A stretch of DNA of 20,800 nucleotides from a virus. Under the pieces are notes generated by a model. The model made no database searches. It had not been told where the DNA came from and saw only the letters and a list, made by a program, of their open reading frames with translations. The translations under genes and the position numbers were made by a program. The DNA lies in IMG/VR virus record IMGVR_UViG_3300022864_000016, positions 1 to 20,800 of that record; one strand, written 5' to 3'. Every line of letters begins with the position of its first letter. The stretch's first letter is position 1. This document shows positions 1 to 20,458 of this stretch, piece by piece.

Positions 1-201
1 CCTATTCTCTTGTAAGGCTCCTTCTACTTCTGTGGCGGAGATTATTGTGCCTGCGTCGGCTATGGGGATATCGGAGGCTGTGGTATCAGTCCCTAAAACG
101 CTGGTCGGCATACCGCTTGGGTATCGCATAACTCTTTCTGCTGAGAACGCCACCTGAGCAAATACGATTAAAGCTATTGTTAAGGTTAATATTTTCTTCA
201 T
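1..201 (-). CDS. Partial signal-peptide fibre-like protein (N-terminus only)
   Basis: An open frame starts with ATG at 201 and runs off the left edge without a stop, giving 67 residues. The start has a good ribosome site (TAGGAG, then AGAGAG before ATG), and the upstream gene's stop codon lies inside that site. Residues 1-20 look like a Sec signal peptide: two lysines after Met, a hydrophobic core (ILTLTIALIVFA) and an AFS|A cleavage site. The mature part contains ATEVEGALQEN, a motif of the type seen near the start of phage tail fibre and collar proteins (VExALxE). It is therefore probably a second fibre or spike subunit with an export signal, the same design as the tail fibre at 970-2772. 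Function beyond that cannot be told because the body of the protein is outside the window. Confidence 0.72.
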   Translation of the reverse strand, partial: MKKILTLTIALIVFAQVAFSAERVMRYPSGMPTSVLGTDTTASDIPIADAGTIISATEVEGALQENR

Positions 202-210
202 CTCTCTCTC

Positions 211-486
211 CTAAGCGTTAATAGCATTATAAAAAACATAAGTTAAACTTTCTCTGGCTGCCCAATTAGCTGCGTAAAGACTATCTCCTATTATATAGCG
301 ATAAGTCCCTTCATCTGTATCGTTTTCCATAATTATCCAAGACCCGCTTCCAGAAATATAACCATAATAATAAATAGTAGCATCTCCGGCTTTTGCCTTC
401 TCATCAGAGATTTCAAAATGGATTGAATCTCCTCCTGCATTATGGTAGACAAAATGACGGTCAGTTATTTGCATTCCTATTGGCAT
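211..486 (-). CDS. Small tail-accessory-like protein, 91 aa
   Basis: A 91-residue protein starting at ATG 486 behind AAGGAG with good spacing. It is rich in aromatic and beta-forming residues (IYYYGYISGSGSWIIM, then TYRYIIGD, YAANWAAR and LTYVFYNAI), with no signal peptide or membrane helix. From memory, short proteins with this YYGY...W.I......YRY...YxxxW..R..L.Y pattern recur beside tail fibre genes in environmental phages. I know of no demonstrated function. It sits between a coiled-coil gene and a second fibre-like gene, with 9-10 bp on each side, so it is very probably made with the tail fibre module and may be a structural or assembly partner of it. Confidence 0.75.
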   Translation of the reverse strand: MPIGMQITDRHFVYHNAGGDSIHFEISDEKAKAGDATIYYYGYISGSGSWIIMENDTDEGTYRYIIGDSLYAANWAARESLTYVFYNAINA

Positions 487-495
487 AGTAACTCC

Positions 496-909
496 TTATT
501 TTTTAAGTATGCTAGTAACCTTGTCTAAAATAGTCTGTTCAAGATTTTGCTCTCTCTTAGTTATCTCAGACTCTCTCTTGTTAAGAGCTTCCTCTTTTAC
601 GATAATCTCCTTCTTCTTGCTGTCTTCATAAGCAGTGAAAGAAGTTATCCTAGTGTTAGTCATCTCAAGACTTGCGTTAGCTTGTGAGATACGACTGTCT
701 GCCTCTTTGCTGTATGTTTCGACACTCTCGATATGTTTAACAGCTGTCTCTCTTGAGTTAAGGTCTTTGGCTCTTAGGTCAGAAGCATCTTCTTTCTCTT
801 TAAGACTTGTTTCCTTCCCGACTAATTCTTTCTTACCAGTGTCTACCTCTGCAAGTCTAGTGACTAATGTATCGTATAATCCCCCAATTTTCTCGATAAT
901 CTGTTTCAT
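496..909 (-). CDS. Coiled-coil protein of the tail-fibre module, 137 aa
   Basis: A 137-residue, highly charged helical protein. Most of the chain from about residue 15 to the end has heptad-like spacing with many E/K pairs (for example KETSLKEKEDASDLRAK and KKKEIIVKEEALNKRESEI), so one or more long coiled coils are expected. There is no signal peptide, membrane segment or recognisable catalytic motif. The start at 909 overlaps the stop of a 13-codon upstream reading frame (ATGA) and is preceded by AGGAGGGAAGG. Its place directly after the tail fibre suggests an oligomerising structural protein or fibre assembly helper, but this is inferred from position only. Confidence 0.78.
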   Translation of the reverse strand: MKQIIEKIGGLYDTLVTRLAEVDTGKKELVGKETSLKEKEDASDLRAKDLNSRETAVKHIESVETYSKEADSRISQANASLEMTNTRITSFTAYEDSKKKEIIVKEEALNKRESEITKREQNLEQTILDKVTSILKK

Positions 910-947
910 CCTTCCCTCCTGTTTATTTTATCAAGTAATATTTCCAT
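906..947 (-). CDS. Possible 13-aa leader ORF before the coiled-coil gene
   Basis: ATG at 947 has its own strong ribosome site (CAGGAG-ATTAAC-ATG) and reads 13 codons (MEILLDKINRREG) to a TGA that overlaps the next gene's ATG as ATGA. The consecutive AGG AGG codons near its end form the Shine-Dalgarno of the downstream gene. It could be a translated leader that couples expression of the coiled-coil protein to ribosome arrival. It could equally be chance, because the gap between the fibre stop and the next gene is only about 60 bp and purine-rich. Confidence 0.4.
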   Translation of the reverse strand: MEILLDKINRREG

Positions 948-969
948 GTTAATCTCCTGTTTTATCTCC

Positions 970-2772
970 TTAAAATTCTAATACTTGAAGTGTGCTCATA
1001 CCTGATAAGACATCTGAATTTGCACTTGATACGTCCAAAACAGACGTAAACGCAGTTGCACCACTCAACCCAGTTACCATTCCAGCAATAGCCCAGTTTT
1101 GGTTTTTTGTACCTGCACCAGAACTACTGATATATTCAATACTAACACTATCGATAATTGTACTACCATACTTTAAATGAATTTGACACGTTCCATCAAC
1201 TTCATCATTATCCCGTACTGTTCCAGTAGCATTTATAAAAACAGTATTACCTGAAGTAATAGTTTTATTTATAGTACAAAGAGTAACATCAGCACCATCA
1301 GCAGTACCAAATGAACCAGAAGTATCACTATCTCCGCTAACTGCTGATGGAGTTGCCCAAGTAGGATTAGCACCTGCACCTGCTGAGGTTAATACCTGTC
1401 CTGAATTTCCCTGTGCACCTAATCCGTCTATAATATCAGAAGCGTCATTTACAAATATCATTCCTGTAGCTGTCTCACCGCTGACACTAACTCCGTCTAC
1501 GGCATCAGCGTTTAAATTAGTTACCTTAGTAGTAGAAGCTACGGTAAAAGGTGCTGTGCCTGTAGCTTGGTCGGAAACGAAAGTTAATCCTGTTGTAGTG
1601 TAAGCCCCTACATCCCAATTAGCGGTTAAAGGGGTAGTTCCGTCTGCAAGTAAATCTCCACCACCTGGAGGGACTACCCAAGTATTATCTCCTCTAAAGT
1701 AAGAGGTAGCGGAAGCGTTTGTCCCTGAGTTAACCATTCCTGAAGTAATAGTTAATTCATCAGTTCCGCCTTCTTCTAAGACTGACTCTGTTATATCGGT
1801 AGCGTTTCCTACAGAGGTAACATCTCCTGTTAAGTTGGCGTTTGTAGTTACGGTGGTAGCGTTGCCTGTTAATTCTCCTGCGAACCCTGTTGTGGTAATT
1901 ATCCCTGTAGAAGGGGTATAGTAACAAGTTCCGTCTGACTCCAAGCCTAGATTGCCACCGTCTAAATCCCCACCTGCTACGAAAACAATCGGATTGTTCT
2001 CTGCAGTGCTTTCATTATCTGTTATAGTTACGGTTGTTCCTACTGTCGCAGTGTCAGCGTTGCCGGTAACATTTCCTGTAAAAGCCCCTGTAAAAGTTGT
2101 AGTAGCTAGATTTGCTGTCCCTGCGTTGTAAGTTATTCCTCCATCTGATTTAGGGTATAAATCCCCTGTAGCACTCTCCCATAAAGAAACATAAGTGGTA
2201 GTGTCTGTAGTGTCGGCTACGGTGATAGTCGTAGGTGCGGTTACATTCTCTAATCCTGTTCCTGCTGCGTTCCACCCAATAACTTTACTAGCTGAGGCTG
2301 CGGGGAATGTAATTGATTCAGTCGCTGTTCCTACTTGTAATAATGACCTGTCTATTTTTTCTTTATTATTCTGTATCATCATTACCATTGTATCAAGACC
2401 CTGTTCTAAAACTTTAGTTGAGAATGGTCCCTGAGGAACGTAATCAATCTCTTGTTTTAAAGCTTGGTCTCTTCTGACTATCAAAGTATATAAAGCTGAA
2501 TAAGTTGACACAGTTGTAACCGTTCCACCTGTACTACTGATGTCAGATACGGTATATTCTGTAGTTAATGTCAGAGTAGTCTCTGCTCCAGTAGATTCAA
2601 GAACAAGGATTACTTCTATATCGTCCTCATCAAAGACCTTGAAGTCAAAGTCAAACTCCGTCTCTGAGGCATCGCAGAGGAAGATTGTCTTAGATGTCTC
2701 ACTGGTTAGATCAGCGTGAGCCGGGCTTATTAGCAGTGCCATAATAAATAATGCGATAAATAACTTCTTCAT
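970..2772 (-). CDS. Tail fibre with T7-type N-terminal anchor domain and a signal peptide
   Basis: A 600-residue tail fibre. Residues 1-20 form a textbook Sec signal peptide (MKKLFIALFIMALLISPAHA, cleavage AHA|D). The start is firmly placed by AGGAGGAAAGA before ATG, and no in-frame start lies just after the hydrophobic segment. Residues about 22-148 match the phage T7 tail fibre N-terminal family, which fixes fibres to the tail: FDFDFKVFDEDDIEV, TTEYTVS, LIVRRDQALKQEIDY and LEQGLDTMVMMIQNNKEKIDR. The centre has many TGN/TGD short repeats typical of fibre shafts. Residues about 485-600 look like a separate beta-rich tip domain and are compositionally different. It is expected to be a trimer that binds the host receptor. 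The export signal is odd, since virion tails assemble in the cytoplasm. Confidence 0.93.
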   Translation of the reverse strand: MKKLFIALFIMALLISPAHADLTSETSKTIFLCDASETEFDFDFKVFDEDDIEVILVLESTGAETTLTLTTEYTVSDISSTGGTVTTVSTYSALYTLIVRRDQALKQEIDYVPQGPFSTKVLEQGLDTMVMMIQNNKEKIDRSLLQVGTATESITFPAASASKVIGWNAAGTGLENVTAPTTITVADTTDTTTYVSLWESATGDLYPKSDGGITYNAGTANLATTTFTGAFTGNVTGNADTATVGTTVTITDNESTAENNPIVFVAGGDLDGGNLGLESDGTCYYTPSTGIITTTGFAGELTGNATTVTTNANLTGDVTSVGNATDITESVLEEGGTDELTITSGMVNSGTNASATSYFRGDNTWVVPPGGGDLLADGTTPLTANWDVGAYTTTGLTFVSDQATGTAPFTVASTTKVTNLNADAVDGVSVSGETATGMIFVNDASDIIDGLGAQGNSGQVLTSAGAGANPTWATPSAVSGDSDTSGSFGTADGADVTLCTINKTITSGNTVFINATGTVRDNDEVDGTCQIHLKYGSTIIDSVSIEYISSSGAGTKNQNWAIAGMVTGLSGATAFTSVLDVSSANSDVLSGMSTLQVLEF

Positions 2773-2781
2773 TCTTTCCTC

Positions 2782-5700
2782 CTATTGGTTTTCTAACATA
2801 AATTCTGACCAGAGTAATCTTCTAAAGTCAGTCGTTTCCCCAGTCGCTAAACCAACTATTCCCTTGATGGTTCTTCTTGGTTGAGAGTATGGCAACTGAA
2901 GCCATACAGCCGATACAAAAGATGCTTTCTCCATTGCCTTTAAATAATCACCACTATCTATATTTGATTTCATATATTTAAGATTGTTCATAATAGCAGA
3001 AACTGGACTTATTGATGGTTCATACCCTCTTAGATAAGCCATTCCTAAATTACCAATTATTGGTACTGAAGAAATAGAAGAACCAAATATAGCGTCAAAG
3101 AAGTCATCTGGATCTTCTGGTAGTCTTCCATGTGACATAATGTATATCAAAGTAGATGAAACTATTATAGATGCTATACCGGTGACAGCTTTTCCATATT
3201 CTCCTTTAGCTACTTCTCTAGGCATATCTGCCCTCGTCATATTCCATATTTGATTAAGCTGGTTAGTAAACATTAAGCCTAATCTTAAAAACTCGTTATT
3301 AGTTCTATAAATAGTTGCTAAATCTTTAACACCACCCTGAGGTTGTGTCTCTATGACTGCCTTATGAGCAAGATTTTTAGCTTCTACTTGTGATTTTGTT
3401 TTTGATTGATGTCTATAAACTGCATCATATACCGACAAAACAGCGTATCTATCCATATTCATTATCATAGCAAAAGCTTTTTTATCTATAGCTTTTGATG
3501 CAACCAACAATGCCCTTTTTATATCTCCCTCAGGTAATCCCTCAATACCTTTTAGTAAGTCATTGAAGTCTCTTGATACTACCCTATTCTTTAAAGAAGG
3601 GTCTAGTTTGTAAATCTCTTCTCTTGCTTTATCATTTGTTATTCTTGTCATACTCTCACCAAGAGCTTTAGGAGTTGTGTACTTCATTGCTAAAGTTAAA
3701 GAAGGAAATTGTTTTAAAGCTGTTACTGCGTTAAAACCTAAATATGCTTTAGACAATCCTAATCTAACTGGTTTCAATACTCTATTCACATATCTCTCAA
3801 CCCAGTTACTTCCTTGAAACATTAAGTCAGGATTAATATTTGTTAATAGATAATCATTAAGCCATTTCCACGATGCCTGTCCATGATTGTATTTAATAGC
3901 GTTCTGTAAGTCTGGATCATTTATTATCTTGTTAAATGATTTCTGTAACGGAGCATAAGCAATTAAATGTTCTTGTTTCTCTATAGCCTTTATAGCATCT
4001 CCTATAAAATCAAGGCTTATCTCTGGTTGGAATTTATCATCTATCTCTTTTCGGGATATGGTACTTTTCTTGTCTACTGAGGTATACTTGAAGCCAGCAC
4101 CTTTCCTTAACACCTGTTCCTGAACCATCTCTGTTTCTAGACCTTCATTCAATTCTTCTTGAGATATACCACCTATGCCTATTCTACGTAGAGGGAAATA
4201 TATATCAACTTTTTCTGGACTTATATTATAATAAGTTTCCGCTGTCTCAAAATATTCATTAGTTCTATTAGCAACTATTTTCTGGGCATCATCAGCAAAT
4301 TTTATATAACTAGGGTATTCAGCCTTTACTGACTTGATAAAATCAGTAACTTCGGCTTCTGTGATATTATTCCCATGTAATAATGCAGCGTGGGACTTTG
4401 CGTCTTTAGTTGCTAGGTACATTCTTAATATATTATTCACTTGATAAGACTTACCATCTATATCAATTAGCTTTCCCAATCCCCAAAATGTAACTTTGTT
4501 ATCTTCCATGGCTTGGTTTATTTGTTTCTTTCTAGCCCATGCGTTAATACCCCTTTGCATATCGGCATTATCAATAGAATTATATATCAGGGTTTCACCA
4601 ATATCTCCTAGTAATCTACGTATCATTCTCAATGGTCGCATTGTAATTATGTCAGCTACCTTTAATAAAGAAGACTTCTTGGCTTTCTTTTCTTGAGTAG
4701 AACCCTTCGAAAACATTCCCTCTTTAGTCCCACCAGCCTGTTTGATTAAAGCAGCTCTCATAATCTCAGATGCAACCTTAGCTTGGTCTTTCTTAGTTTT
4801 AAAAACTTTCTTCCCGGTCTCTTTCAAGTCAGCTATTACATCTGCTAGTTTAATTAGCTCACCTGTAGTCATCTTATTAAGGGATTTCTTACGAGTCTGT
4901 TTCTTATCACCTAACTTATTAAGTATACCATCAATCTGTTTCTGATATTGAATGTCGATAATGTTAGAAGGTTTCTTATATGCTTTGAGAACTGTCTTGG
5001 CAGCTTTGCCTCTAGTAGCTTTTTCTGTTCTTTGAGCTTTTATTTTAGCCATCAAATCTTTTCTTATAGTAACCTCACCTCTTCTAAAAGCCTTGCCTCT
5101 TAACCTTTCGAGTTCTTCGCCCTTAATTGTTATACCTTCTTTTTCCAATCTTGCGATACCAGTATCTTCTAAATCTGCAATTTGGTAATGGATGCTTTCC
5201 CATTCTTTATCTAATTTCTTCAGTTTATTCTCAATAGCCTTTATTGGTTTATTGTCTTTCTTGAGCATATCTCTTTGTTTCTCTAATAGAGTCATTTCCT
5301 TCTCTATAGCAACCCTTCTTTGGTCAAGTTGCTTTTCCCTGCCCTGATAGAGTAAAGATATTTTCTTTTTTATATCAGCAGTTTGGTTATCATTAGCATT
5401 TATTACTTCTTGAGCCTTTTGCTGGATAGGGGTTTTTTCTTTCCCCTGTGCCTTATTCCAGATGTCGGTGAGTTGGGATTTGGTTTCTGTTATTTTTATT
5501 CCTTTTTCAGGTGCAGTGTATTTATAATAAATGTCTGCCCTTCTGCCCATAACTTGCGGATGAAGGTCATCTCGTATTCCTTTTATATCTTTATCTACAA
5601 AATATTGTTGTATTTTCTTTCTATATTTCCTTGTTAAATCCTGTTCGGTCATTCCTTTAACTCCATCAACGACTAAGACTATATCTATATCGCTTCCGGG

Positions 5701-7251
5701 TTTTAATTCTCCTTTTGCAAAACTACCTACAATATAAACATCTTTTATATTTTCTTTATTCTCAACTAAAGGATGTTTGTTGACAATATCTACAATCTCA
5801 TCTTTTGCTGGTTGTTTAGCCACAAACTCGGCAGCAGTCTTAAACTTCTTGGCTTCGGCTATGAGAGGCTCTACAATAGGGGTTTTTGAAGTAGTAAGTG
5901 CCTCAGTTACCTCAGCTTTGTCTTCTTTTACTTTAATCAATCCTTTATCAACAAACTCTTTGTGTAGTGTATCTAGTGCTTCTGCTTCCTTAGGTGTTAG
6001 TTCCTCTCCAGAAGCAGCCTTGACTATAAGTTCTGCTTTTGTTCTACCTTCTGGTGATGGTTCATTTAGTTTCAAAGATAGTTCGTCTTTCTCTTTTTCA
6101 TTAAGATTATCTAATACTTTACTAATATCTTTTTGTGACACTCCCTTTCCAGTTAGATGGTTGCTAATCATTTGAGATGAAGCCCCCATACCACCATATA
6201 TAGCAAAAGCTCCTATTTCTATTGACGCTTGCTCCCACCCCGGGAAGACAGCTTCCTGTAACTTATCCATAGTAGATATATCTCTGTCATCTACACCAAT
6301 AATAGTTTTAAGCAATGCACCAAACCTTTCCTCTCCATATTCTTCTACTAATCCGTCAAAACCACCCTTGCTAAGTAGGTTCACTATCTTACCCTTAGGT
6401 ATTTTCTTAGATATGGCTTCAGCTATCTTAGTGAAGACTTCTTTAGTAGCCTTTGGAAGTCTTTTAAGTATTCCTCTTGTAGCTACATTTCCTATCGGTT
6501 TGAATAATTCTCCTCCCATAGTTTCACTATAAAACTCTACAAAAGTATCTCCATACGCTTTCATAAAAGTAATAACAGGTTGTTCAGCTGCTTCATTCGT
6601 TAGTCGTATTCCTTTGTCTGTAATAGCTAAATGTTCATTGAGACTTTTTTGCCCATAGGTAGCTAACGCTCTATGTGGTAATACTGTAGTTCTTACCGCG
6701 CCGACTACAGCCTCTCTAGCTAATACTTTTGCAGCTTTTGTAACTAATAACTTTTTCGCACCCACAGCAGCAGTTTTAGTAAGAGCTGCCCTTGTGACAG
6801 AAGCCAACCCTTTTGTTGCAGCAAACTCCAAAGCAAATGAAGGAATATTAGCTACAACACGGTAAACATTCTTTCCCCAAGTAGACCCTCTTATCATGGA
6901 CTCTTCTTTCCTTAACATAACATCATATAGAGTTTGTTCGTCAGCTTCTTTTCTTTCAGGACTTGTATACTCATCATCTCTAAGCCTACCTACTAACCCA
7001 ACAAGAGACCCAGTACCTGCTACTTGTCCATAATAAATATCGCTAAATAGTGTCTTTGTACCATACTCCCACCAACCTTCTGGGCCTTCGGCTAACCAAG
7101 TGTTACGTTGTTCAGGAGTAGATAGTAAGAATTTATCTTCTCCTGCACCAAACGTATCAACAGCTACAGCACCATCATCCAATTCAGGATTTGGTTTCTT
7201 GCTCTCAATAGGTATCAATCCGCTCTTTGCTTCTACTGGTACTAATGGCAT
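2782..7251 (-). CDS. Giant internal virion (ejection) protein with embedded nucleotidyltransferase-like domain, 1489 aa
   Basis: The largest gene, third in a run of three internal-protein genes. Its place before the tail fibre matches T7 gp16, and its size is similar (T7 gp16 is about 1300 aa), but it has no lytic transglycosylase motif that I can see. Residues about 465-590 contain GSFAKGELKPGSDID (G509, S510, D521, D523), the GSx(10)DxD signature of DNA polymerase beta-type/MNT nucleotidyltransferases. D573 (RADIYY) is a candidate third metal ligand. Residues about 620-720 are charged coiled coil. The C-terminal 400 residues (LGFNAVTALKQFPSL and so on) resemble conserved C-terminal regions of giant phage 'polyvalent' proteins, and 1354-1374 and 1391-1409 are hydrophobic enough to touch membrane. 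It probably enters the cell with the DNA. Enzymatic activity is inferred from the motif. Confidence 0.88.
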   Translation of the reverse strand: MPLVPVEAKSGLIPIESKKPNPELDDGAVAVDTFGAGEDKFLLSTPEQRNTWLAEGPEGWWEYGTKTLFSDIYYGQVAGTGSLVGLVGRLRDDEYTSPERKEADEQTLYDVMLRKEESMIRGSTWGKNVYRVVANIPSFALEFAATKGLASVTRAALTKTAAVGAKKLLVTKAAKVLAREAVVGAVRTTVLPHRALATYGQKSLNEHLAITDKGIRLTNEAAEQPVITFMKAYGDTFVEFYSETMGGELFKPIGNVATRGILKRLPKATKEVFTKIAEAISKKIPKGKIVNLLSKGGFDGLVEEYGEERFGALLKTIIGVDDRDISTMDKLQEAVFPGWEQASIEIGAFAIYGGMGASSQMISNHLTGKGVSQKDISKVLDNLNEKEKDELSLKLNEPSPEGRTKAELIVKAASGEELTPKEAEALDTLHKEFVDKGLIKVKEDKAEVTEALTTSKTPIVEPLIAEAKKFKTAAEFVAKQPAKDEIVDIVNKHPLVENKENIKDVYIVGSFAKGELKPGSDIDIVLVVDGVKGMTEQDLTRKYRKKIQQYFVDKDIKGIRDDLHPQVMGRRADIYYKYTAPEKGIKITETKSQLTDIWNKAQGKEKTPIQQKAQEVINANDNQTADIKKKISLLYQGREKQLDQRRVAIEKEMTLLEKQRDMLKKDNKPIKAIENKLKKLDKEWESIHYQIADLEDTGIARLEKEGITIKGEELERLRGKAFRRGEVTIRKDLMAKIKAQRTEKATRGKAAKTVLKAYKKPSNIIDIQYQKQIDGILNKLGDKKQTRKKSLNKMTTGELIKLADVIADLKETGKKVFKTKKDQAKVASEIMRAALIKQAGGTKEGMFSKGSTQEKKAKKSSLLKVADIITMRPLRMIRRLLGDIGETLIYNSIDNADMQRGINAWARKKQINQAMEDNKVTFWGLGKLIDIDGKSYQVNNILRMYLATKDAKSHAALLHGNNITEAEVTDFIKSVKAEYPSYIKFADDAQKIVANRTNEYFETAETYYNISPEKVDIYFPLRRIGIGGISQEELNEGLETEMVQEQVLRKGAGFKYTSVDKKSTISRKEIDDKFQPEISLDFIGDAIKAIEKQEHLIAYAPLQKSFNKIINDPDLQNAIKYNHGQASWKWLNDYLLTNINPDLMFQGSNWVERYVNRVLKPVRLGLSKAYLGFNAVTALKQFPSLTLAMKYTTPKALGESMTRITNDKAREEIYKLDPSLKNRVVSRDFNDLLKGIEGLPEGDIKRALLVASKAIDKKAFAMIMNMDRYAVLSVYDAVYRHQSKTKSQVEAKNLAHKAVIETQPQGGVKDLATIYRTNNEFLRLGLMFTNQLNQIWNMTRADMPREVAKGEYGKAVTGIASIIVSSTLIYIMSHGRLPEDPDDFFDAIFGSSISSVPIIGNLGMAYLRGYEPSISPVSAIMNNLKYMKSNIDSGDYLKAMEKASFVSAVWLQLPYSQPRRTIKGIVGLATGETTDFRRLLWSEFMLENQ

Positions 7252-7252
7252 A

Positions 7253-8803
7253 TTATTCTTTTTTGTTTACCCACTTGTAATGTATCCCGTCTACTATAAC
7301 TTCTGTACCATCAGGAAGATTAGCAGCCTCAACATCTGCTTCACTACCAAATGTAGGAGTCTTTCCCTTAACAGCGGTAATATCTCCTTGTTCTAACACG
7401 TCATTCCTTCTTCCTGTTTTAATCTTATCAGCTATGTCTGTTGCCCATTTTGTTCTTTCTTCTTTCTTAGCATCAGGATTTTCTGTTTCTTTATAATAGA
7501 AGTCCCTGACTGCACTATATCTGTCTTCTGGATTTAACACTTTTTTGAAATACTTATCAGCATCTGATACATCATATGTAAACCACTTATTAGCTATTAC
7601 CTTTTCTGTAGCTTGTGCTGTAGTCTTATCATAAATTTGTTTAAATAATGTATTTGCTGTAGATTTGGTCATTAACCCATCCTTTAACCCATTATTTATC
7701 TCTATGCTTATATTGTTTACTCCATTTAGGTAAGACTTAGCATCTTCAGCTTTGCGGTTTTTCTTTTCTTTAGACTTATACCCAGCAGTAATATCGGCTA
7801 TCTTCATTATCATACTATGCTCAAATTTATCCATCTTATCTCTAGTGACACCTGCTACAGAAAGAATAGCTTTTTTCTTCGCCTCAGCCCAGTTATCACT
7901 AAAAATACCAAATTCTAGTCCATTGTCTAACTCCTTTAGGGCTTCTCCTAGGCTCATATCACCAAGTTTATTCTCAAAATCGCCTTGAGCTGTTAGTTTA
8001 CCTCTCAAAGAGTCTATTGTTTTCCCTTCAACCATTTTCTTCAAAATATCTTTAGCCGAACTAGCTAACTCTATCTTTTCAGCATCGTCTAATAAATCAA
8101 ACATCCCTTCTTTATCATTATTTATTATGTCTAAGAACTCTTCTGGATTAGTAGTAATTAGATAATTAGCCTGTGCTTTAACTAAATCTTTTTCAAACTT
8201 CCCGGGGACACCATCCTTCCCCAGTTCAAACTCTACAAACTCTTTTAAAATTATACCCTTGCCGTAAGCATCTCTGAGAGATTTACTGTATTCGCTTAAA
8301 GCAGCTACTTGGGAAGCATCATTCATACTAGGATAATCAGTTACTATTCGCTCTCGTTCATATCCTATACCAGCTTGTGCAGCTTTATGTTGTCTATCTA
8401 AATGTAAATGTTTAATCCCCCACTTAGCGGCTATGTTTTGAGATTGAGCATTTAAAAGAAACTTCTCTCTACCTGATTTACTAGTTATCAGTTTAGAGGC
8501 TTCCGTAGTAGCTTTATCATACATTGCTTCGTATTCAGTAGGGTTTCCGTCAAGGTCTTGTGCGAATAAAGAATTTATCTCATTCCTACTATCACCATTT
8601 ACATTGCTTGCTTCTGTGGACTCTTTGAAATCCCTGACATCAAGCATAGCTCTCTCAGCTTCTAATAAGGCACTGGCAGCTCCCTCAAGCCCGCTAGAAA
8701 TCCCTCTGGTATCTACAACAGAAGGTGTCGCCTTAGGAGGGGTGAACCCCGGAGCATCTTGAGATACCCCGACTTTGCTTCTATATTCTATTAGTTTACC
8801 CAT
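7253..8803 (-). CDS. Internal virion (core) protein, 516 aa
   Basis: A soluble, mainly helical 516-residue protein between the gp14-like gene and the 1489-aa gene, so it holds the place of T7 gp15, a tube-forming ejectosome component (T7 gp15 is about 750 aa, so this is shorter). Features seen are an N-terminal Pro/Gly linker followed by long amphipathic helices, including SKSGREKFLLNAQSQNIAAKW and KEFVEFELGKDGVPGKF, and a compact C-terminal stretch rich in D/G (EADVEAANLPDGTEVIVDG). There is no signal peptide or membrane helix. Its ATG directly follows the upstream stop (TAGATG) with GGGAGAAAATAG as ribosome site, and only one base separates its stop from the next ATG, so the three internal proteins are translated as a unit. 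Confidence 0.8.
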   Translation of the reverse strand: MGKLIEYRSKVGVSQDAPGFTPPKATPSVVDTRGISSGLEGAASALLEAERAMLDVRDFKESTEASNVNGDSRNEINSLFAQDLDGNPTEYEAMYDKATTEASKLITSKSGREKFLLNAQSQNIAAKWGIKHLHLDRQHKAAQAGIGYERERIVTDYPSMNDASQVAALSEYSKSLRDAYGKGIILKEFVEFELGKDGVPGKFEKDLVKAQANYLITTNPEEFLDIINNDKEGMFDLLDDAEKIELASSAKDILKKMVEGKTIDSLRGKLTAQGDFENKLGDMSLGEALKELDNGLEFGIFSDNWAEAKKKAILSVAGVTRDKMDKFEHSMIMKIADITAGYKSKEKKNRKAEDAKSYLNGVNNISIEINNGLKDGLMTKSTANTLFKQIYDKTTAQATEKVIANKWFTYDVSDADKYFKKVLNPEDRYSAVRDFYYKETENPDAKKEERTKWATDIADKIKTGRRNDVLEQGDITAVKGKTPTFGSEADVEAANLPDGTEVIVDGIHYKWVNKKE

Positions 8804-9340
8804 CTATTTTCTCCCTTCTTTGTCGAGAATTGTATATAAGCTTGTTCCGAATTTAAGTAGTGAACTTCCTGCATCCGTGATTGCCTGAGACCCAGCTTGA
8901 CTACCTTTTAATCTTTCCATACCTGCTGAGACTCTAGTAGTATCTACATCACCATACTCAGCGTTTATATTAGTATAGATTATATCGAGTTCAGCTTGTT
9001 TAAGACTCTCTTTCATAACTGCTACTGGGGAGCCTGATAGCCTGACACCTGAAGCAGCGTAAGTTGCTCTTTGTGTTCCGTATATTGCCATACCTTCTCT
9101 ACGGATTCTCTTCACCTCTACCTTGGCGGAGAGTTTTCTCTGCCTTTGTTTAATGGCATTTATTCTGCCTTCAAACTCAAACATTCGTGCATTGAACTCA
9201 CCTGCTCTCTTTGCGGACTGGGCACCGATGATTCCTGTGGCGATACTAGTCAAGGCTGAGGCAGCTCCAAAGGCAATAGCACCTGTAGTATTAGCGCTCA
9301 TACCTTGTTTAGGTAATGGTGTTGTTCCGAAATATGCCAT
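8804..9340 (-). CDS. gp14-like internal virion protein, 178 aa
   Basis: A 178-residue protein with the usual layout of podovirus internal virion protein B. It has a Gly/Ala-rich hydrophobic segment near the N-terminus (about residues 20-43, GAIAFGAASALTSIATGIIGA), then a long basic helix (FNARMFEFEGRINAIKQRQRK and following), a conserved-looking GTQRATYAASGVRLSGSP stretch and another helical part. T7 gp14 is similar in size and forms the outer-membrane pore of the ejection channel. The membrane-compatible N-terminal segment fits that role. It is placed between the nozzle gene and the core protein gene as in T7. The start at 9340 has AAGGAG at good spacing. Confidence 0.85.
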   Translation of the reverse strand: MAYFGTTPLPKQGMSANTTGAIAFGAASALTSIATGIIGAQSAKRAGEFNARMFEFEGRINAIKQRQRKLSAKVEVKRIRREGMAIYGTQRATYAASGVRLSGSPVAVMKESLKQAELDIIYTNINAEYGDVDTTRVSAGMERLKGSQAGSQAITDAGSSLLKFGTSLYTILDKEGRK

Positions 9341-9363
9341 ATTAAAATCTCCTTATTGTCATC

Positions 9364-11835
9364 TTAATTTACCTCGATTACTGGGATTATTGCCAACACG
9401 TGCATCGGGAGGCAGTCCGTTTGCTCTATTATAATCTGTTTCTTTTTATCCCAGCCACTAGGAAATTGCACCTCTTTAAACCCTGTGAATATCGGTATCA
9501 TCTGGTCTGGTAACATTGCTGAAGTCCTGAATATAATGTCATCCATTTGCCCTGTCCTTCCTACCTTACCACCTAATGTTTTATAAAAATTGATATTAAC
9601 CGTAGAGATACTCTTATATTTACCGTGAGCTACGAATTTATCTGAGACTTCTAAATCATTGGTCTTTACTCGTCCTGTATAACCCAGCCCTACGTGAACC
9701 TCTGAATAGGTATCTGTGAGAGTGATTGACCCACTGGCTACTGTCCTGTCGGGATGTGCTGCTCCGTCTACGAGGACTTGGACTGTCTTGCCTTCTAAAT
9801 GGTCTAAGCCTGAAATCGTGGTTGTGCATTTCCTGACCTCACCATCGGAAACGTAATCTGTATAATCTGAACCATCTACTACAGCTGAGTCTAAGTCAAG
9901 AAGAACAAATGCGTTCGCTGAAGCACTGCCTACGATATATCTACCTTGATTTAATTCTGTCATCCCTTCAACTCCTCTGATTCTAACAGTATCAGTATTA
10001 GAGAAGCCGTGAGAGGCCGCTGTAACTGTGATAAGCCCTGTCCCACCTGTTAATTGAACGATGTTAGTAATCGTCTTAGGGGAGTCTAGGGTAAGTCCAC
10101 TATGAACGAAGAAGGCGTCCTCTTGCTCGTCAAACTCCGGGGCTACCTGATATTCAACATAGCGTCTAGTAGTTCCATCGATTGTCCTTTTAACTATAAA
10201 CCAGACTTGGTCATAAGAGTCTTTAGGGATAACTGATACGCTTTGATACTCCCCTTGAGTATCGTGTAGAGTCCAAGCTGCTACCTTCTGCTCTACCTGT
10301 CGAGTGAAACAAGCTAGTTTTCCGTCATCTCTTACGCACCATAAGAGGTTCAACGGAGCTTGCTGATAAGCCATATCTATAATCCCGCTTTCGCTAATAT
10401 GTTCAGAGAAGGCTGTAGCTTCATTAGCTTGGTAATTATCTACATCTAAGGAGTACACATACTCTCTTAAAATCCGGTTATACTCTTGCCAGTAATAAAC
10501 GTTATTTCCTATCTGGAATGGTTTAATACTCGAAGTCCCATAACTTGATTTCTTCTTACGCCTGACATTGGTCGGAGTTATTGGAGAGGTGTCACTGCCT
10601 GTTCCGAAGGTATGTAATCCTCCTGCTGTTCCGGTAAGCAATTCGCTTGAAGGAAAGAGCCATTTTATTACCTCTACTTCATTAGTGTCCATTCTGAACG
10701 AGACTCCGTAATCATCATCAGCACCTGCTTTGAAATTATCATAAGAAAAGATTTGAGAACCCCATGCAAACTGAGGTTGGTAAGCCGTGTACCCGTAATA
10801 AAGTCTACCTTCGTGGATACTTACGGATTTAGGATAACCTCTATAAGCAGACCAAGCAGGTTCAGACCATTCTTCATTCGCACCTGTAGGGAGAGTACCG
10901 CTATATAGGACATTTGCCGTAGCTACAGTCTTTAGTCCACTAGTAGAAACAGAAACAATCTTAGCATACCCGTGGGAGGTGGAAAGAGAACCAATAGCCC
11001 AGATAGAGCCAACGTGGTCCTCATCGAATACCGCCACTGAAGCGGTAAGGATTATCCCATTACCTGCTGAGGCTGAAGGGGTGATTGTTGTTGTGGTTAC
11101 ATTCTCATCCATTAAAGCTGGTCGGTTGCTTCCGGTAGAATAGTCTATTTCTGTTAATGTCCAAGAAGTATGTCCACTACGGGTCAGTTTAGATTGAGGA
11201 TAATCAGGATGAGTTATATATAAAACATCAGCAGTTTGAGAGAATTGAAGTTCCCTGATTACACTTGTAGGGTATGAAGTCGCTATTTCGTAAATCTTCT
11301 CAGACTCTCCACCTGAAGAGTAAGCCGTGTATGTAGTAGGGTCTATGTAATTACCGTCTATATCTTGTAGGAAGAAGTGGTCAGCATATTGGTCGGCTAC
11401 CAAAAACCTTTTGTTGTTGACCTCTGTCCTTCCTACTACGTCTGTGATTTTTACAGTATCAAGGTTTGAATATCCATGGGAGACACAAGTTACCAAAGCT
11501 CTCGCAGATGAAGTGGCTAGACCAGTAATCGTCTTCGCTGATTCAAGGATAGAACCATTCTCACGGAAGAAACGCATATATAGATTCCCAATTTCTATTA
11601 CATAAGCCTGAGTATCAGAGAATACAAATCTCTTAGATATTGTATCTAATGAAGAAGTCTTAACCTCTGCAGCGAAGTAAGTTCCCGGAGCTTTCTTAGC
11701 ACCACCGTAGAACTCAACTACCATATTAAGAAGTTCTGCGGCTGATTGATAATATTGTGCTATATCGGTCCGTCCAGAAAGTTTCGGCGATAGCTCCCCA
11801 GAAGTAAAACTATTTATTATCGGAGTGGTTTTCAA
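9364..11835 (-). CDS. Tail tubular protein B-like (tail nozzle), TTG start, 823 aa
   Basis: The N-terminus (INSFTSGELSPKLSGRTDIA, then NMVVEFYGGAKKAPGTYF) is the hallmark of the podovirus tail nozzle or stabilisation family, which extends the tail tube below the gp11-like ring. The length of 823 aa is typical (T7 gp12 is 794). The start codon is TTG at 11835. AAAGGAG lies at normal distance, the nearest in-frame ATG is residue 38 and would remove the conserved N-terminus, and the nearby ATG at 11840 is out of frame and stops after two codons. Residues about 102-180 and 589-670 are two copies of one module (SHGYSNLDTVKITDVVGRTE versus SHGFSNTDTVRIRGVEGMTE) that resembles the FCCH fold used in many phage tail proteins. 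Confidence 0.92.
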   Translation of the reverse strand: MKTTPIINSFTSGELSPKLSGRTDIAQYYQSAAELLNMVVEFYGGAKKAPGTYFAAEVKTSSLDTISKRFVFSDTQAYVIEIGNLYMRFFRENGSILESAKTITGLATSSARALVTCVSHGYSNLDTVKITDVVGRTEVNNKRFLVADQYADHFFLQDIDGNYIDPTTYTAYSSGGESEKIYEIATSYPTSVIRELQFSQTADVLYITHPDYPQSKLTRSGHTSWTLTEIDYSTGSNRPALMDENVTTTTITPSASAGNGIILTASVAVFDEDHVGSIWAIGSLSTSHGYAKIVSVSTSGLKTVATANVLYSGTLPTGANEEWSEPAWSAYRGYPKSVSIHEGRLYYGYTAYQPQFAWGSQIFSYDNFKAGADDDYGVSFRMDTNEVEVIKWLFPSSELLTGTAGGLHTFGTGSDTSPITPTNVRRKKKSSYGTSSIKPFQIGNNVYYWQEYNRILREYVYSLDVDNYQANEATAFSEHISESGIIDMAYQQAPLNLLWCVRDDGKLACFTRQVEQKVAAWTLHDTQGEYQSVSVIPKDSYDQVWFIVKRTIDGTTRRYVEYQVAPEFDEQEDAFFVHSGLTLDSPKTITNIVQLTGGTGLITVTAASHGFSNTDTVRIRGVEGMTELNQGRYIVGSASANAFVLLDLDSAVVDGSDYTDYVSDGEVRKCTTTISGLDHLEGKTVQVLVDGAAHPDRTVASGSITLTDTYSEVHVGLGYTGRVKTNDLEVSDKFVAHGKYKSISTVNINFYKTLGGKVGRTGQMDDIIFRTSAMLPDQMIPIFTGFKEVQFPSGWDKKKQIIIEQTDCLPMHVLAIIPVIEVN

Positions 11836-11847
11836 ATCATTCTCCTT

Positions 11848-12414
11848 TTATAATCTGCTATTTAGAAATACGTCAGAAATTGGGTCATCCAAACTTTGTT
11901 CCATTCCGTTACTAGAGCGAGCAGCGTTATTCTTCAGGTTAAACTCTGCCCATTTAATCTCTACTAACTTTTTATCCCCTGTTATTGAATAGCATAACTC
12001 AGCTGCAATCTTCGCTGAGAAAGCTTCTACGAAAGCATCATCATAGCTGTTAGGGTCTTCATTGAAATAGATATACTCAATGCTTAAAGTTGTTGAATTA
12101 CAATAGATCCGTCTCCCTTTTATCTTGTGAGTATATCCGTCTTCTGTAATGCTAGTCTTTAATAGCTTAACGAAATCTGGCGGTAAGTTAAAAACATAGT
12201 CGTAATCATCAAGCTCAGGGGTAACGTCTACCCTAGATAGTGATGTTTCTTTCTTAGCAAAGTTCCAAGGATGTGAACGAAGATAAGCTCTTAATAAAGG
12301 GTCGTAAACAACTAAGACCTTCCTCCCTACTTCATTGCCCTCGATAGGCAAGGCAATCGGTTCAGCCCTTAGACTTACTAGAGCTACGTTTATCATATTA
12401 ACTTTTGAGCTCAT
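11848..12414 (-). CDS. Tail tubular protein A-like (gp11-type adaptor), 188 aa
   Basis: A 188-residue protein with the pattern of the gp11-like adaptor family. It has an N-terminal helix (VNMINVALVSLRAEPI), then YDPLLRAYLRSHPWNFAKKE, a strongly conserved element where incoming tail helices contact the portal, then YDYVFNLPPDFVKLL, a short beta part (KIKGRRIYCNS) and helices with EAFSAKIAAELCYSITGD. Size agrees with T7 gp11 (196 aa). Twelve copies are expected to form a ring between portal and nozzle. It is the first gene after the intrinsic terminator at 12428-12467 and has a strong ribosome site, AAAGGAGG. An ATG that overlaps that site is too close to be used, so 12414 is preferred. Confidence 0.92.
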   Translation of the reverse strand: MSSKVNMINVALVSLRAEPIALPIEGNEVGRKVLVVYDPLLRAYLRSHPWNFAKKETSLSRVDVTPELDDYDYVFNLPPDFVKLLKTSITEDGYTHKIKGRRIYCNSTTLSIEYIYFNEDPNSYDDAFVEAFSAKIAAELCYSITGDKKLVEIKWAEFNLKNNAARSSNGMEQSLDDPISDVFLNSRL

Positions 12415-12427
12415 CCCATCCTCCTTT

Positions 12428-12467
12428 AAAAAACTAGAGATAGGGTTTTTAAATCCTACCCCTAGTT
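12428..12467 (-). terminator. Intrinsic terminator between head and tail genes
   Basis: On the minus strand two 13-nt arms at 12467-12455 (AACTAGGGGTAGG) and 12444-12432 (CCTATCTCTAGTT) pair along their full length with two G-U wobbles. The loop is 10 nt, and the stem leads straight into TTTTTT (12433-12428). This is a classic rho-independent terminator placed about 10 bp after the presumed decoration gene and 14 bp before tail tubular A. T7 has its late terminator at the corresponding place after capsid gene 10. It probably lets head proteins be made in excess of tail proteins. Confidence 0.85.
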
Positions 12468-12476
12468 AAAATTCCA

Positions 12477-12914
12477 CTATCCCTTTGTAACGTAAGTAAC
12501 GATAACCTTAATTGTTCCAGTTCCTGCGGTTGCTCCAGTTGTATGCAAAACCAAAGTCTGTCCTGAACCAGCTACTATTTCGTGCCCAGCTGTTGCAGAT
12601 ACACCATTAATCTTCATACAGAACATATCAGCACCAGTATTATCTACTGCTGCCATCAATGCTGCCTTAGAGTCGCTTGTTCCAAAACTCAAACCTGGGA
12701 TGTCGTTAGCGTCAGCATCAATAACCCAATCTATAATCCGAGCCTCTGCAGGTAAATCCTGTCCAAAAAGCACGATTGTAGAATCGGCTGCCAAAGCTGA
12801 TGCTTCGTAAGTGTCAATCAAAGTCTTGACTACTCCGCCCATTTCTTCAGGCTCTATACTGTTTACTGGTCCTGTTCTTTTTAATGTTCTATTTACTCCA
12901 TATACATCACCCAT
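12477..12914 (-). CDS. Probable head decoration / capsid accessory protein, 145 aa
   Basis: A 145-residue protein rich in Gly, Ala, Thr and Val with alternating beta-type sequence through the C-terminal two thirds (STIVLFGQDLPAEARIIDWV, MFCMKINGVSATAGHEIV, TLVLHTTGAT, TIKVIVTYV). There is no membrane or signal segment. It lies right after the capsid gene and before the terminator, in the same high-expression block, which suggests an abundant capsid-surface or capsid-stabilising protein. I do not recognise a specific family. The N-terminal 27 residues are polar and may be a flexible arm. The start at 12914 is fixed by an in-frame TAA 9 bp upstream, but its AGGAGG is 30 nt away with a hairpin in between. 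Confidence 0.8.
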   Translation of the reverse strand: MGDVYGVNRTLKRTGPVNSIEPEEMGGVVKTLIDTYEASALAADSTIVLFGQDLPAEARIIDWVIDADANDIPGLSFGTSDSKAALMAAVDNTGADMFCMKINGVSATAGHEIVAGSGQTLVLHTTGATAGTGTIKVIVTYVTKG

Positions 12915-12950
12915 TTTTAATTAACAAGGGTAACTAACCCTCGCCCTCCT
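12915..12950 (-). promoter_or_regulatory. Hairpin-separated ribosome binding site
   Basis: Minus strand AGGAGGG (12950-12944) is followed by a 7-bp hairpin (CGAGGGT at 12943-12937, loop TAGTT, ACCCTTG at 12931-12925, one G-U) and then 10 nt of AT-rich DNA to ATG at 12914. The linear distance from Shine-Dalgarno to ATG, about 30 nt, is too long. With the hairpin folded it becomes about 11 nt. T4 gene 38 is a known case of a hairpin bringing the two together. Confidence 0.6.
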
Positions 12951-12961
12951 TTCTTTCTTAT

Positions 12962-12977
12962 ACTACCTATAAGTAGT
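12962..12977 (-). other. Small stem-loop after the capsid stop
   Basis: Directly after the capsid TAG the minus strand reads ACTAC-TTATAG-GTAGT, a perfect 5-bp stem with a 6-nt loop. No T-run follows, so it is not a terminator. It may protect the mRNA 3' of the capsid gene or be part of the leader of the next gene. A stem this short could also be chance. Confidence 0.35.
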
Positions 12978-13829
12978 CTATTCTGTACATTCAACTCTAA
13001 CAACTCTCTTCTCTTCTAACCTTGTTGCGCCATAAGATTGTCCTGCATAAATCTGAGCTGAGAAATGTCTTCCGGGAAGTTCGTCAATAGATGCTTTCAT
13101 ATCCAACCAAGTTCCTAGAACCATTCCGTCTCTGTGGTAAGCGTGGCAATACTGAGTTGTAGAGGATTTTTCCAATCTCTCGGTTTGTTTAAGCATAAAC
13201 CCGCAAAGAGTTCCTACCTGGCCATTAACTAAAGCTTTAACCTGAGCGTAATCAGCGCTTGTTACTTCTGAGATTGCAAGTAAATCTTCAACTTGGTCAG
13301 CACTAAGAGCTAGGTATCTGTTGTCATCTTCAACTTCATTAGAGTCAAGAATCTTCTTAGCTTCACGAATCTTAACCATATTCATACCAGCAGAGCTATG
13401 AACTATGATTTGTGTAGAAGGTAGGGAGACTGAGGAAGTTCCAGCTTTTCCATAATATGCTAATGCTGAGAAAGCTGTGCAGACTACTTCGTCTTTAGCT
13501 CTTGCTAAAGCGCCTGCGTTGTTCATAACAATAGGAGAGGTAGGGTCTTTAGCCATCATAACCTTATCCATATTGTCAACTAAAGGTGCTTTGTAAAAGT
13601 AACGTGGAACTATCTTTCTACGATCATAACTAGGGTCAGTATTAACTACGACCTCGTTACGAGAAAGTTTTTCTTGTGCATCGGTAGATGCTAACTGCTC
13701 TTGGAAAGCCATCTCTCCAACGCAATCAGGTTTCTGAAACACTGTGTTAGCAATCTTAACTAACTTTTGCTGAACAAGCAGTGTTATATTGTCGCTGTAC
13801 TGCCTAATCAATATACTGTCAACACTCAT
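12978..13829 (-). CDS. Major capsid protein, 283 aa
   Basis: A 283-residue protein matching the environmental-phage capsid family exemplified by the block DPSYDRRKIVPRYFYKAPLVD, then DPTSPIVMNNAGALARAKDEV, where tyrosine, arginine and proline positions are characteristic. An HK97-type fold is expected from the family. Later elements include KIREAKKILDSNEVE (spine-helix-like), RYLALSADQVEDLL, and the C-terminal GATRLEEKRVVRVEC strand. T7 gp10A is longer (345 aa). There is no sign of a frameshifted long form. It lies between scaffold and decoration genes. The strongest ribosome site in the region (AAGGAGGAG, then AAA before ATG) and a structured leader fit very high expression. Confidence 0.93.
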   Translation of the reverse strand: MSVDSILIRQYSDNITLLVQQKLVKIANTVFQKPDCVGEMAFQEQLASTDAQEKLSRNEVVVNTDPSYDRRKIVPRYFYKAPLVDNMDKVMMAKDPTSPIVMNNAGALARAKDEVVCTAFSALAYYGKAGTSSVSLPSTQIIVHSSAGMNMVKIREAKKILDSNEVEDDNRYLALSADQVEDLLAISEVTSADYAQVKALVNGQVGTLCGFMLKQTERLEKSSTTQYCHAYHRDGMVLGTWLDMKASIDELPGRHFSAQIYAGQSYGATRLEEKRVVRVECTE

Positions 13830-17429: not shown

Positions 17430-17870
17430 CTATAAGGTTTTTATATAGTGGGTTTCAAGTTCTTTAAACCCTAGTCTAGTATAGAACCGATCAAGCTTTG
17501 CTGCTTTCAAGTTCGCTAAATGTATCATAATAATATGCTTAATCCCCTTTGCTCGACAAAACTCTTCAAGCTTTCTAAAGAGTAATACTCCATATTTCCT
17601 ATAAGCTTTTGAGACATACCATATAATCTCTTGATAAACCTTACTCCCGTCTGAGGGGAAGTTGTTGACTATCCCTGCTACTGTTCCTACTATCAAGCCA
17701 TCTTTCTCAACGACTAAGGTGCTTCCGATACAGAGTTTAAACACTGCCTTAATCTGTTCTGGGTTTACTGCACCAGCGCCATAATCTTTTAAACTCTCTT
17801 CAGTGAACTCTTTAATCAATTCGAGTCCATCTTCTATATCCGTTTCTTCTGCTAGCCTAATCTTTATCAT
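17430..17870 (-). CDS. GNAT-family N-acetyltransferase, 146 aa
   Basis: A complete small GNAT protein: IRLAEETDIEDGLELIKEF (beta1-alpha1), LVVEKDGLIVGTVAGIV (beta2-beta4), IIWYVSKAYRKYGVLLFRKL (motif A, acetyl-CoA pyrophosphate loop and alpha3), GIKHIIMIHLANLKAAKLDRFY and TRLGFKELETHYIK (motif B). The usual R/QxxGxG/A loop reads RKYGVL, so the last small residue is replaced. ATG at 17870 overlaps the terminase stop as ATGA and is preferred. A GTG six bases upstream (17876) is an alternative. The acceptor is unknown. It sits inside the head operon between terminase and portal, so either a virion protein or a host target is possible. Confidence 0.88.
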   Translation of the reverse strand: MIKIRLAEETDIEDGLELIKEFTEESLKDYGAGAVNPEQIKAVFKLCIGSTLVVEKDGLIVGTVAGIVNNFPSDGSKVYQEIIWYVSKAYRKYGVLLFRKLEEFCRAKGIKHIIMIHLANLKAAKLDRFYTRLGFKELETHYIKTL

Positions 17871-19432
17871 ATCCACGGCCTTACTGGATCGTGATAACCT
17901 GAGACTCCTACCTTATCCGCATATCTCCCTGTTAAGGGGTCGTATCCTGTAATCTCTCTAGCCATTCCTTGTGGTCTATCTGAGCTTGATGTTACTGGTG
18001 GTTTAGCTATTTGATTCTGCATAGCCAGAGAGTCTATTAAGTCAGTATATAAAGACTTGAATCCGTCTTGGGTTACGCCTAGCATTTCATTCTCTAACTC
18101 TGGAAGCCAAGAGGCATTCTCTGGCATTAGGACTGTATGTCCTGCGACTCGGGGTGCGAGCATCTTCACTCGTTCTAGTTTGTTCCCTTCTTTGGCGTGT
18201 TCTATTGGGATTATGTTAAAGAAGACATTCCTCATCTGCATTTCCTTCATTATAAAGGGTTCGAGCATTTGTTTAAACCAGCCTTTCTCTATTCCGAAAG
18301 GGAGTCTCCTGTGGTTTCCGTTATAGGGGATGTATTTAATTACTGCATCGAATATCTGATTTATCATCTCATCTGACTTCCAACGACCGTAAATCACGTC
18401 TGCTATTATCCAGCGGTTGTCTTCTGTTACTGCGTTAACACAGATAGCCCGATAACAGGCACTGGGGTCAACACTTGAAGCACCGTCTAGAGTTAAGAAC
18501 CAGTTACAGTTCTGGGTGATTTTATCCAGATAGAGGTAGGAGAATCTTACTAAATCATTGAGGTTAAAGATACGGTTCTCAGGTGTTACGGCTTCGCACA
18601 TTCTCTCACGCATCCAAACATCCAGCTGTCCTAGAGTCCTATAAGACTGTCTTTCTTTGTTTATAAACTCCATTGAGAACATCTCAGGCCATGAGGGAAG
18701 CCCGGACTTATTAAGTACAGCGACCTTTCTTGTTTTGAATCCTAGTTCTTTAGCGTTATTGAATACACGTTCTATGATACACTTCTCCCCGAGGTTGTTA
18801 CCGATTAGGATTATCTTAGTTGTTTTACCTAGAAATTTAACATCGGATAAGAACCACTCCCAGTCATGCTTTAATACTGTCTCACTTCGGGAGTCTTCAG
18901 TGCTTTGAGGGTCATCGGCAATGACAATTTTAGGTCTACGGTCTATATTAGCCAATCCACGAATAGCTGAACCCTTACCATAAGACTCTATACGGACATT
19001 GAATACTCTTCCTTCTGCGTCTTTAACGTCTACTGAGAACACCTTAGCTGACTTCTGTTTGACTTCTACGACATTAGCACAAAGGACAGGGTTGGATAGG
19101 TACTCTGTCTCTATCTCTAGGAGCTTGTCGGAGGCTAGTGTGGCGTTGTCTTTAATCAGGACGATGTAATCTCTGTCTTCAGTGGGGAACATTAGACAGT
19201 AAAGGGGGAAGGCTCTTAGTACGTAATTACCTTTAGCACTCTGTCTAAAGCCTTCTATGGCAAAGTTACCGGGTTCGTTTAATAGTATGTTAGACCAATC
19301 GTAATGATATGGGGCTGGTGGGACTTCGTCTTTACCGTTGACTAAGAGATAATACCTGAAGTTGACAAGGTTGTCTTCAGCTAGGTTTACTCTTTCTTTT
19401 AGTTCTTGAGTTTGTTCAGCTGATAGATTCAT
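17867..19432 (-). CDS. terL: Terminase large subunit, 521 aa
   Basis: The packaging motor: an N-terminal ATPase and a C-terminal nuclease. The Walker A region is GFRQSAKGNY (residues 61-70), which lacks the usual Ser/Thr after Lys. Walker B with catalytic acid is IVIADD (170-175), and the coupling motif is LIGNN (209-213). The RNase H-like nuclease shows D316 (LTLDGASS), E382 (FGIEKGW) and D464/D467 (YTDLIDSLA). The length of 521 aa is close to that of other podovirus terminases (T7 gp19 is 586 aa). It follows the putative small subunit and overlaps the preceding 46-aa gene by 17 bp. The ribosome site (AAAGAAAA) is weak, so translation is probably coupled. Confidence 0.94.
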   Translation of the reverse strand: MNLSAEQTQELKERVNLAEDNLVNFRYYLLVNGKDEVPPAPYHYDWSNILLNEPGNFAIEGFRQSAKGNYVLRAFPLYCLMFPTEDRDYIVLIKDNATLASDKLLEIETEYLSNPVLCANVVEVKQKSAKVFSVDVKDAEGRVFNVRIESYGKGSAIRGLANIDRRPKIVIADDPQSTEDSRSETVLKHDWEWFLSDVKFLGKTTKIILIGNNLGEKCIIERVFNNAKELGFKTRKVAVLNKSGLPSWPEMFSMEFINKERQSYRTLGQLDVWMRERMCEAVTPENRIFNLNDLVRFSYLYLDKITQNCNWFLTLDGASSVDPSACYRAICVNAVTEDNRWIIADVIYGRWKSDEMINQIFDAVIKYIPYNGNHRRLPFGIEKGWFKQMLEPFIMKEMQMRNVFFNIIPIEHAKEGNKLERVKMLAPRVAGHTVLMPENASWLPELENEMLGVTQDGFKSLYTDLIDSLAMQNQIAKPPVTSSSDRPQGMAREITGYDPLTGRYADKVGVSGYHDPVRPWI

Positions 19433-20073: not shown

Positions 20074-20458
20074 GCTCTACCCTATTGGTCCCACTATTGG
20101 TTTCTAGTTTAGGCTTTGATATTATGTTCTCGAAGAATTGATTGTGGCCTATGTGGATTATTGGTTTCTCACCTTCTATCTCGTGTTTTAATTGTAATTG
20201 TAAGTCGGCTGGGTCTTTTCTACTTTGGTCGGCAACCTTGATTGCTCGTTTAATCCAATGCACACGCTTACTTTTCTCCCATTCTACTTGAACTTTTAAG
20301 AAATCAGGATTTGCAAATAGTATTTGGTTTACGCGTCTATTTGTCACCCCAAACATTTCCCCTATTTCTTCAGTAGTCTTTAAGTCATCAGCCCATAAAG
20401 CGCATATCTTTGCGTCTCTTAGTTTGTTCCTGCCAACTATTTTATCTGGTAATTTCAT
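20057..20458 (-). CDS. terS: Putative terminase small subunit, 133 aa
   Basis: A 133-residue protein. The N-terminal 55 residues contain a clear helix-turn-helix (RDAKICALWADDLKTTEEI, then GEMFGVTNRRVNQILFANPDF), the DNA-recognition type found in phage small terminase subunits. A basic helical segment follows (KSKRVHWIKRAIKVADQSRK), then a likely oligomerisation or C-terminal tail. Order and distance to terL, with only small genes between, match T7 (gene 18 then 19) and many other phages. It would recognise the packaging start and regulate TerL. The ATG overlaps the preceding TGA by four bases and has no clear Shine-Dalgarno of its own. A small transcription regulator is the alternative reading. 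Confidence 0.72.
   Translation of the reverse strand: MKLPDKIVGRNKLRDAKICALWADDLKTTEEIGEMFGVTNRRVNQILFANPDFLKVQVEWEKSKRVHWIKRAIKVADQSRKDPADLQLQLKHEIEGEKPIIHIGHNQFFENIISKPKLETNSGTNRVEHVSKD

Follow-up and report, generated by a model that had tools for sequence, protein, structure and literature searches.

The main tail fibre encoded in the window (the whole 20,800-nucleotide stretch of viral DNA analysed here) is, on its predicted sequence features, a T7-type fibre with a Sec signal peptide, and it departs from the known family by this N-terminal extension. We infer that adhesion proteins of this kind would be exported through Sec and cleaved to the normal N-terminus of a fibre, would fold in the periplasm and would attach to the particle at lysis, a reading to which we give a probability of about one in two.

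Signal peptide and attachment domain of the window fibre

The fibre ORF (970-2772, minus strand) encodes 600 amino acids and begins with MKKLFIALFIMALLISPAHA followed by DLTSET, after which the tail-attachment domain comes directly. Translation, a scanner and comparisons place a Sec-type signal peptide at residues 1-20 (MKKLFIALFIMALLISPAHA; 2713-2772, minus strand), with predicted cleavage between A20 and D21 (Asp21 codon, 2710-2712). This segment has a Lys-rich n-region (MKK), a hydrophobic core with a Kyte-Doolittle 9-mer maximum of 3.19 and an Ala-His-Ala cleavage motif, that is, the n-region charge, core and AxA motif of a predicted Sec/signal peptidase I substrate. Both a lipobox Cys and a twin-arginine motif are absent from it; with Asp at +1 and MKK as the n-region, a lipoprotein or a Tat substrate was ruled out. 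Here and throughout, signals were scored with a simple rule-set scanner. A ribosome binding site read directly from the sequence (AGGAGG, 2778-2783, minus strand) stands 5 nt before the fibre ATG and shares bases with the TAG stop codon (2782-2784) of the gene upstream. Past the hydrophobic segment, no ATG, GTG or TTG lies within 8 residues of the domain start, and the translation gives residue 129 as the next Met. The strong ribosome site and the lack of a start codon near the domain rule out a mis-called start.

The domain behind the predicted signal (residues 21-148; 2329-2712, minus strand) is, on alignments, profiles and a structural model, a T7-type tail-attachment domain. In alignments it begins where signal-less homologues begin, and PHROG tail and tail-fibre profiles match the window fibre from residue 24-34 onwards. 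An AlphaFold model of residues 1-200, built from 69 homologues, reached a mean pLDDT of 78, with blocks of 87-96 over residues 31-100, and its best Foldseek matches among solved structures were the Carin1 fibre (8ck1), T7 gp17 (7boz, 7ey9) and other podovirus fibres (E 7e-8 to 1e-3). No Pfam family, PF03906 included, matched the window fibre. Among other signal-bearing fibres described below, that of L244 scored 28.1 bits against PF03906 (curated cut-off, 25.2), and those of L210 and L144 fell below the cut-off. The virion operon and the T7 fold rule out a bacterial adhesin in place of a phage fibre. The shaft and tip occupy residues 149-600 (970-2328, minus strand; from ORFs and Pfam). Tips differ between near-identical phages, as seen in the window (970-1560, minus strand) and L001 (5001-6572), the latter giving a weak Pfam Collar/Gp10_C-like match that the window tip does not have.

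In its N-terminal attachment fold, its variable distal part and its position after internal virion proteins, the window fibre resembles T7 gp17-type fibres (PF03906; 7boz, 7ey9; Carin1, 8ck1); the members compared have no signal peptide, whereas in the window a predicted Sec signal replaces the initiator Met. The closest cultured relatives of the domain, the HTVC010P-type fibres (HTVC010P, Skadi, Greip and Lederberg), start with M-T-[IV]-S-[ST]-T and, unlike the window fibre, have no signal. We did not find export signals on T7-type fibres described in the open-licence literature, which is weak evidence of novelty, and the searched text of the paper on HTVC010P-type phages (PMC6811365) does not mention export signals on fibres.

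The window comes from an uncultivated podovirus whose virion genes lie on the minus strand and whose nearest cultured relatives are HTVC010P-type pelagiphages (portal identity about 37%). Gene order and profile matches identify a terminase (17867-19432) and two tail proteins (11848-12414 and 9364-11835); the portal (PF12236, 15463-17094) was matched by Pfam at E 1e-111, and the same portal family was found in all five signal-fibre phages examined. Directly upstream of the fibre, a large putative internal virion protein of 1489 aa (2782-7251, minus strand) fixes a T7-like gene order, with the fibre gene after it in a PF12236-portal phage. No relative of the window fibre turned up among 84,980 prokaryote genomes scanned with it. 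The sole signal-bearing match in a genome bin, a 3.9-kb contig in a Nitrospirae bin, is too weak a basis for a host assignment.

Several other features of these genes deserve mention. The internal virion protein of the window contains a PF01909 nucleotidyltransferase domain (E 1e-10; 5488-5868, minus strand), and at the same position the L001 protein (195-4991) contains an unrelated insert that includes VVFRGTSKEKDGFSKTKGQAGEGIYFTND, L001 being otherwise about 98% identical; a domain of this probably ejected protein is swapped between the two phages. PF16190 (E1_FCCH, E 1.6e-12) matches two stretches of the tail protein at 9364-11835 (minus strand), which is unexpected in a phage tail protein. 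Between terminase and portal, within the structural operon, lies an acetyltransferase-like gene (GNAT-type by eye; 17430-17876, minus strand), and similar-looking genes adjoin the tail genes of L210 and L244. A 65-aa ORF (20455-20652, minus strand) with an N-terminal hydrophobic, lipoprotein-like segment, MKYFLPMLLILVCFSS, and no PHROG match is possibly spanin-like.

Recurrence of the signal at the native fibre N-terminus

Fibre N-domains were gathered from IMG/VR and GTDB contigs and scanned with a domain HMM, giving 188 distinct domains among the matches listed. In all 180 signal-less fibres the start codon lies no more than 5 residues from the domain. In the other eight, an AxA-type cleavage site is predicted at a distance of 0-2 residues from the domain start; the collection was pattern-based, and 8 of 188 among the matches listed is not a prevalence estimate. 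The signal-bearing fibres are those of L124 (the window type, also represented by L001 and L090), L002, L103, L130, L210, L144, L331 and L244. These eight signals represent six lineages, and their sequences are mutually unrelated except among near relatives.

The clearest case is L331, in which the signal MMFRLLLILCLLTFTAPVHA sits directly on the canonical TISSTT start (TISSTTSR). In the near relative L002/L095, a different and still signal-like sequence, MKILKVLFTGIIIGMFALSAHA, precedes a nearly identical domain, the available mature stretch of the L002 fibre being 94% identical to that of the window. A diverged signal before a conserved domain is the usual outcome of the evolution of cleaved signals. 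The M-T-[IV]-S-[ST]-T start of cultured pelagiphage fibres aligns just past the AHA of the window fibre. On these alignments, the predicted signal takes the place of the initiator Met at the native fibre N-terminus. No signal was present on the cultured phage fibres inspected, all signal-bearing members being uncultivated, and none was found on the fibres of PH444, three Manatee Spring phages and zth2-2.

On a tree of 60 domains, six changes in signal status are required, at least four of which well-supported branches make unavoidable; a single clade of the six signal lineages was rejected (AU test, p-AU 1.7e-11), ruling out a single inherited oddity. Five changes were counted on a quick tree that was larger but did not include L331. 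We conclude that the predicted arrangement recurs in about six phage lineages; the six changes fit repeated gain by recombination and many losses alike. Recurrence, the exact junction and the upstream-gene controls given below rule out a chance hydrophobic N-terminus. The earlier note had read the segment as a genuine Sec signal on a T7-type fibre and not as an annotation artefact, and had looked to homologues for support. This reading is borne out: the expected sequence features are present, AGGAGG stands 5 nt upstream with no alternative start near the domain, and the signal is kept in close relatives and recurs in other lineages.

Signals across the appendage cassette

A second signal peptide, MKKILTLTIALIVFAQVAFS followed by AERVMRYP (142-201, minus strand; from sequence and translation), opens the next fibre-like gene, of which the 5' part (1-201, minus strand) lies in the window before the gene runs off its end. 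This second signal-bearing appendage gene continues in L001 (7494-8291), where the fibre-like motifs TEVEGALQENR and GNVGIGTTTPNQLL are found, and it had no PHROG or Pfam match. The window also encodes a 91-aa appendage accessory protein (211-486, minus strand; BLASTP to its L331 homologue, E 2e-7) and a 137-aa predicted coiled-coil protein (496-909, minus strand; weakly similar to an L210 protein in the equivalent place). Since neither of these cassette proteins has a signal, export would not be uniform, and because the L331 homologue of the 91-aa protein (11649-11969) does have one, the same protein may differ in signal status between phages.

In L331, all four appendage genes, which are consecutive, have signals, namely the fibre, a pectate-lyase-like tailspike, a 106-aa accessory protein and a GNVGIGT-repeat fibre. 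L210 has five signal-bearing cassette genes, the window phage has two, and in L244 all three have signals; in whole-contig listings of four phages the signals cluster in the appendage block. A uniform test of downstream genes found a signal in 6 of 20 after signal-bearing fibres vs 6 of 338 after other fibres; the six include one lipoprotein-like gene (L130), the filter overlooked two genes of L244, and the p value of 1e-5 is only indicative given the non-independence of the genes. Upstream virion genes, scanned in the same way, had a signal in 1 of 321 cases. The predicted signals are a cassette-wide property of appendage genes. The earlier note was right about the fibre; its picture of a property of one fibre did not hold, as the second window gene and the cassettes of relatives carry signals too.

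In L201, L203 and L153 the main fibre is signal-less and downstream fibre-like genes are signal-bearing; these fibre-like or lectin-like genes lie at 9722-11710, 5221-8080 and 9129-13126, respectively. Counting main-fibre signals alone may thus understate how common exported appendage proteins are. L153 (9129-9590) and L210 (8989-9447) share, at 49% identity, a conserved appendage protein of roughly 150 aa that bears a signal and for which no PHROG and no significant Pfam match was found.

Proposed export and periplasmic folding, and rival explanations

In the scheme that we prefer, the fibre would be synthesised as a Sec preprotein, from which signal peptidase I would take off residues 1-20 to leave the same N-terminus as on T7-type fibres of the ordinary cytoplasmic kind. 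It and the other signal-bearing cassette proteins would fold and trimerise outside the cytoplasm, in the periplasm, and disulphides would probably also form outside the cytoplasm. Once lysis breaks the envelope, the exported fibres would use their attachment domain to dock onto tails that had been put together in the cytoplasm. Signal-bearing fibres have kept a conserved attachment domain, and for this reason we expect that they still go onto virions. Export, cleavage, folding and docking form the simplest account because the conserved domain points to the virion, the signal to departure from the cytoplasm and the exact junction to an ordinary mature fibre. Among the three explanations offered by the earlier note, joining the particle after retention outside the cytoplasm fits best, and membrane contact by an uncleaved segment is disfavoured by a cleavage site that coincides with the native N-terminus in six lineages.

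Cysteine content was also compared. Signal-bearing appendage proteins contain 0.87 Cys per 100 aa vs 0.43 in signal-less fibres. Among complete proteins with any Cys, even and odd counts stand at 13:3 in the signal-bearing set (13:4 counting the near-duplicate L001 fibre) vs 45:80 in controls, the set being small and hand-assembled and the controls containing related sequences. Exported proteins of Gram-negative bacteria favour even Cys counts (PMC7678975). The pattern is suggestive of folding in an oxidising compartment, as in disulphide-bonded exported proteins.

The fibres, all of them or a sub-pool, might instead be exported as masks or decoys that bind the host's receptor from the periplasm or the surface, blocking superinfection and the sticking of virions to debris. 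A precedent for signal-bearing tail-region proteins that alter the host surface is lambda Lom (PMC12309495), which resides in the outer membrane and whose gene lies between tail genes; like the window fibre, Lom and similar exported phage proteins bear signals and are encoded among tail genes, and export signals on the whole adhesion set would also suit masking. However, Lom is an outer-membrane beta-barrel without a tail-attachment domain, unlike the window fibre, and such a domain is needless for a masker, yet it is conserved in the signal-bearing fibres. Moreover, no signal-less second copy of the main fibre was seen in the contig listings of the window, L331, L210 and L244. We consider masking unlikely.

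Inefficient signals could leave part of the pool for cytoplasmic assembly while the rest is exported for a second role. Such a dual fate would reconcile export with cytoplasmic tail assembly, and several signals contain internal Met codons, e.g. M11 in the window; but no ribosome site precedes the internal Met of the window, and internal Met codons are absent from the signals of L103 and L144. We hold this account to be decidedly improbable.

We give little chance to the proposal that infected or lysogenic cells display the fibres as adhesins, with the tail domain reused or inherited. The model here is the Bdellovibrio MAT proteins (PMC10769870), which are phage-tail-fibre-like and surface displayed and in which, as in the window fibre, the signal leads directly into a domain (about 130 aa and beta-rich) followed by a trimeric phage-like fibre, a likeness by description only. 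Unlike the window fibre, they are cellular proteins displayed by the predator and encoded outside a virion operon. Pantoea WceF (PMC7949094) likewise shows that a trimeric tailspike-like fold can be exported, but it differs from the window fibre in having a Tat signal, a bacterial gene and no virion. Against display, HTVC010P-type genomes reportedly lack an integrase (PMC6811365), the signal-bearing genes lie in the virion operon directly after internal virion proteins, and no outer-membrane anchor was seen. That the hydrophobic segment stays uncleaved and, on the virion, contacts membranes or serves as a tail anchor is scarcely plausible: T7-like phages do use hydrophobic internal virion proteins in DNA ejection, but here the sequence varies freely while n-, h- and c-regions and AxA are kept at the native N-terminus in six lineages, signal-less relatives have no N-terminal extension (180 of 180 start within 5 aa), and the same kind of segment is found on cassette proteins with unrelated N-domains.

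Export with docking at lysis can be extended to a two-compartment assembly in several unrelated T7-like phages, in which capsid and tail would be made in the cytoplasm, and all of the adhesion apparatus (main fibre, tailspike and accessory fibres) would pass through Sec, undergo processing and disulphide maturation in the periplasm and be joined to the particle only at or after lysis. We put this forward tentatively, as falling somewhat short of even odds. In the textbook view, T7-like phage assembly is wholly cytoplasmic. If the proposal is true, some virions have host-binding parts that mature in a different compartment, which would change views on how receptor-binding proteins fold, how premature receptor binding is avoided and how tail proteins are annotated and expressed. 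Signal cleavage at the native N-terminus of a fibre offers a sequence rule for finding further cases. The predicted signals suggest that in some viruses the host-binding parts leave the cytoplasm before the particle is complete.
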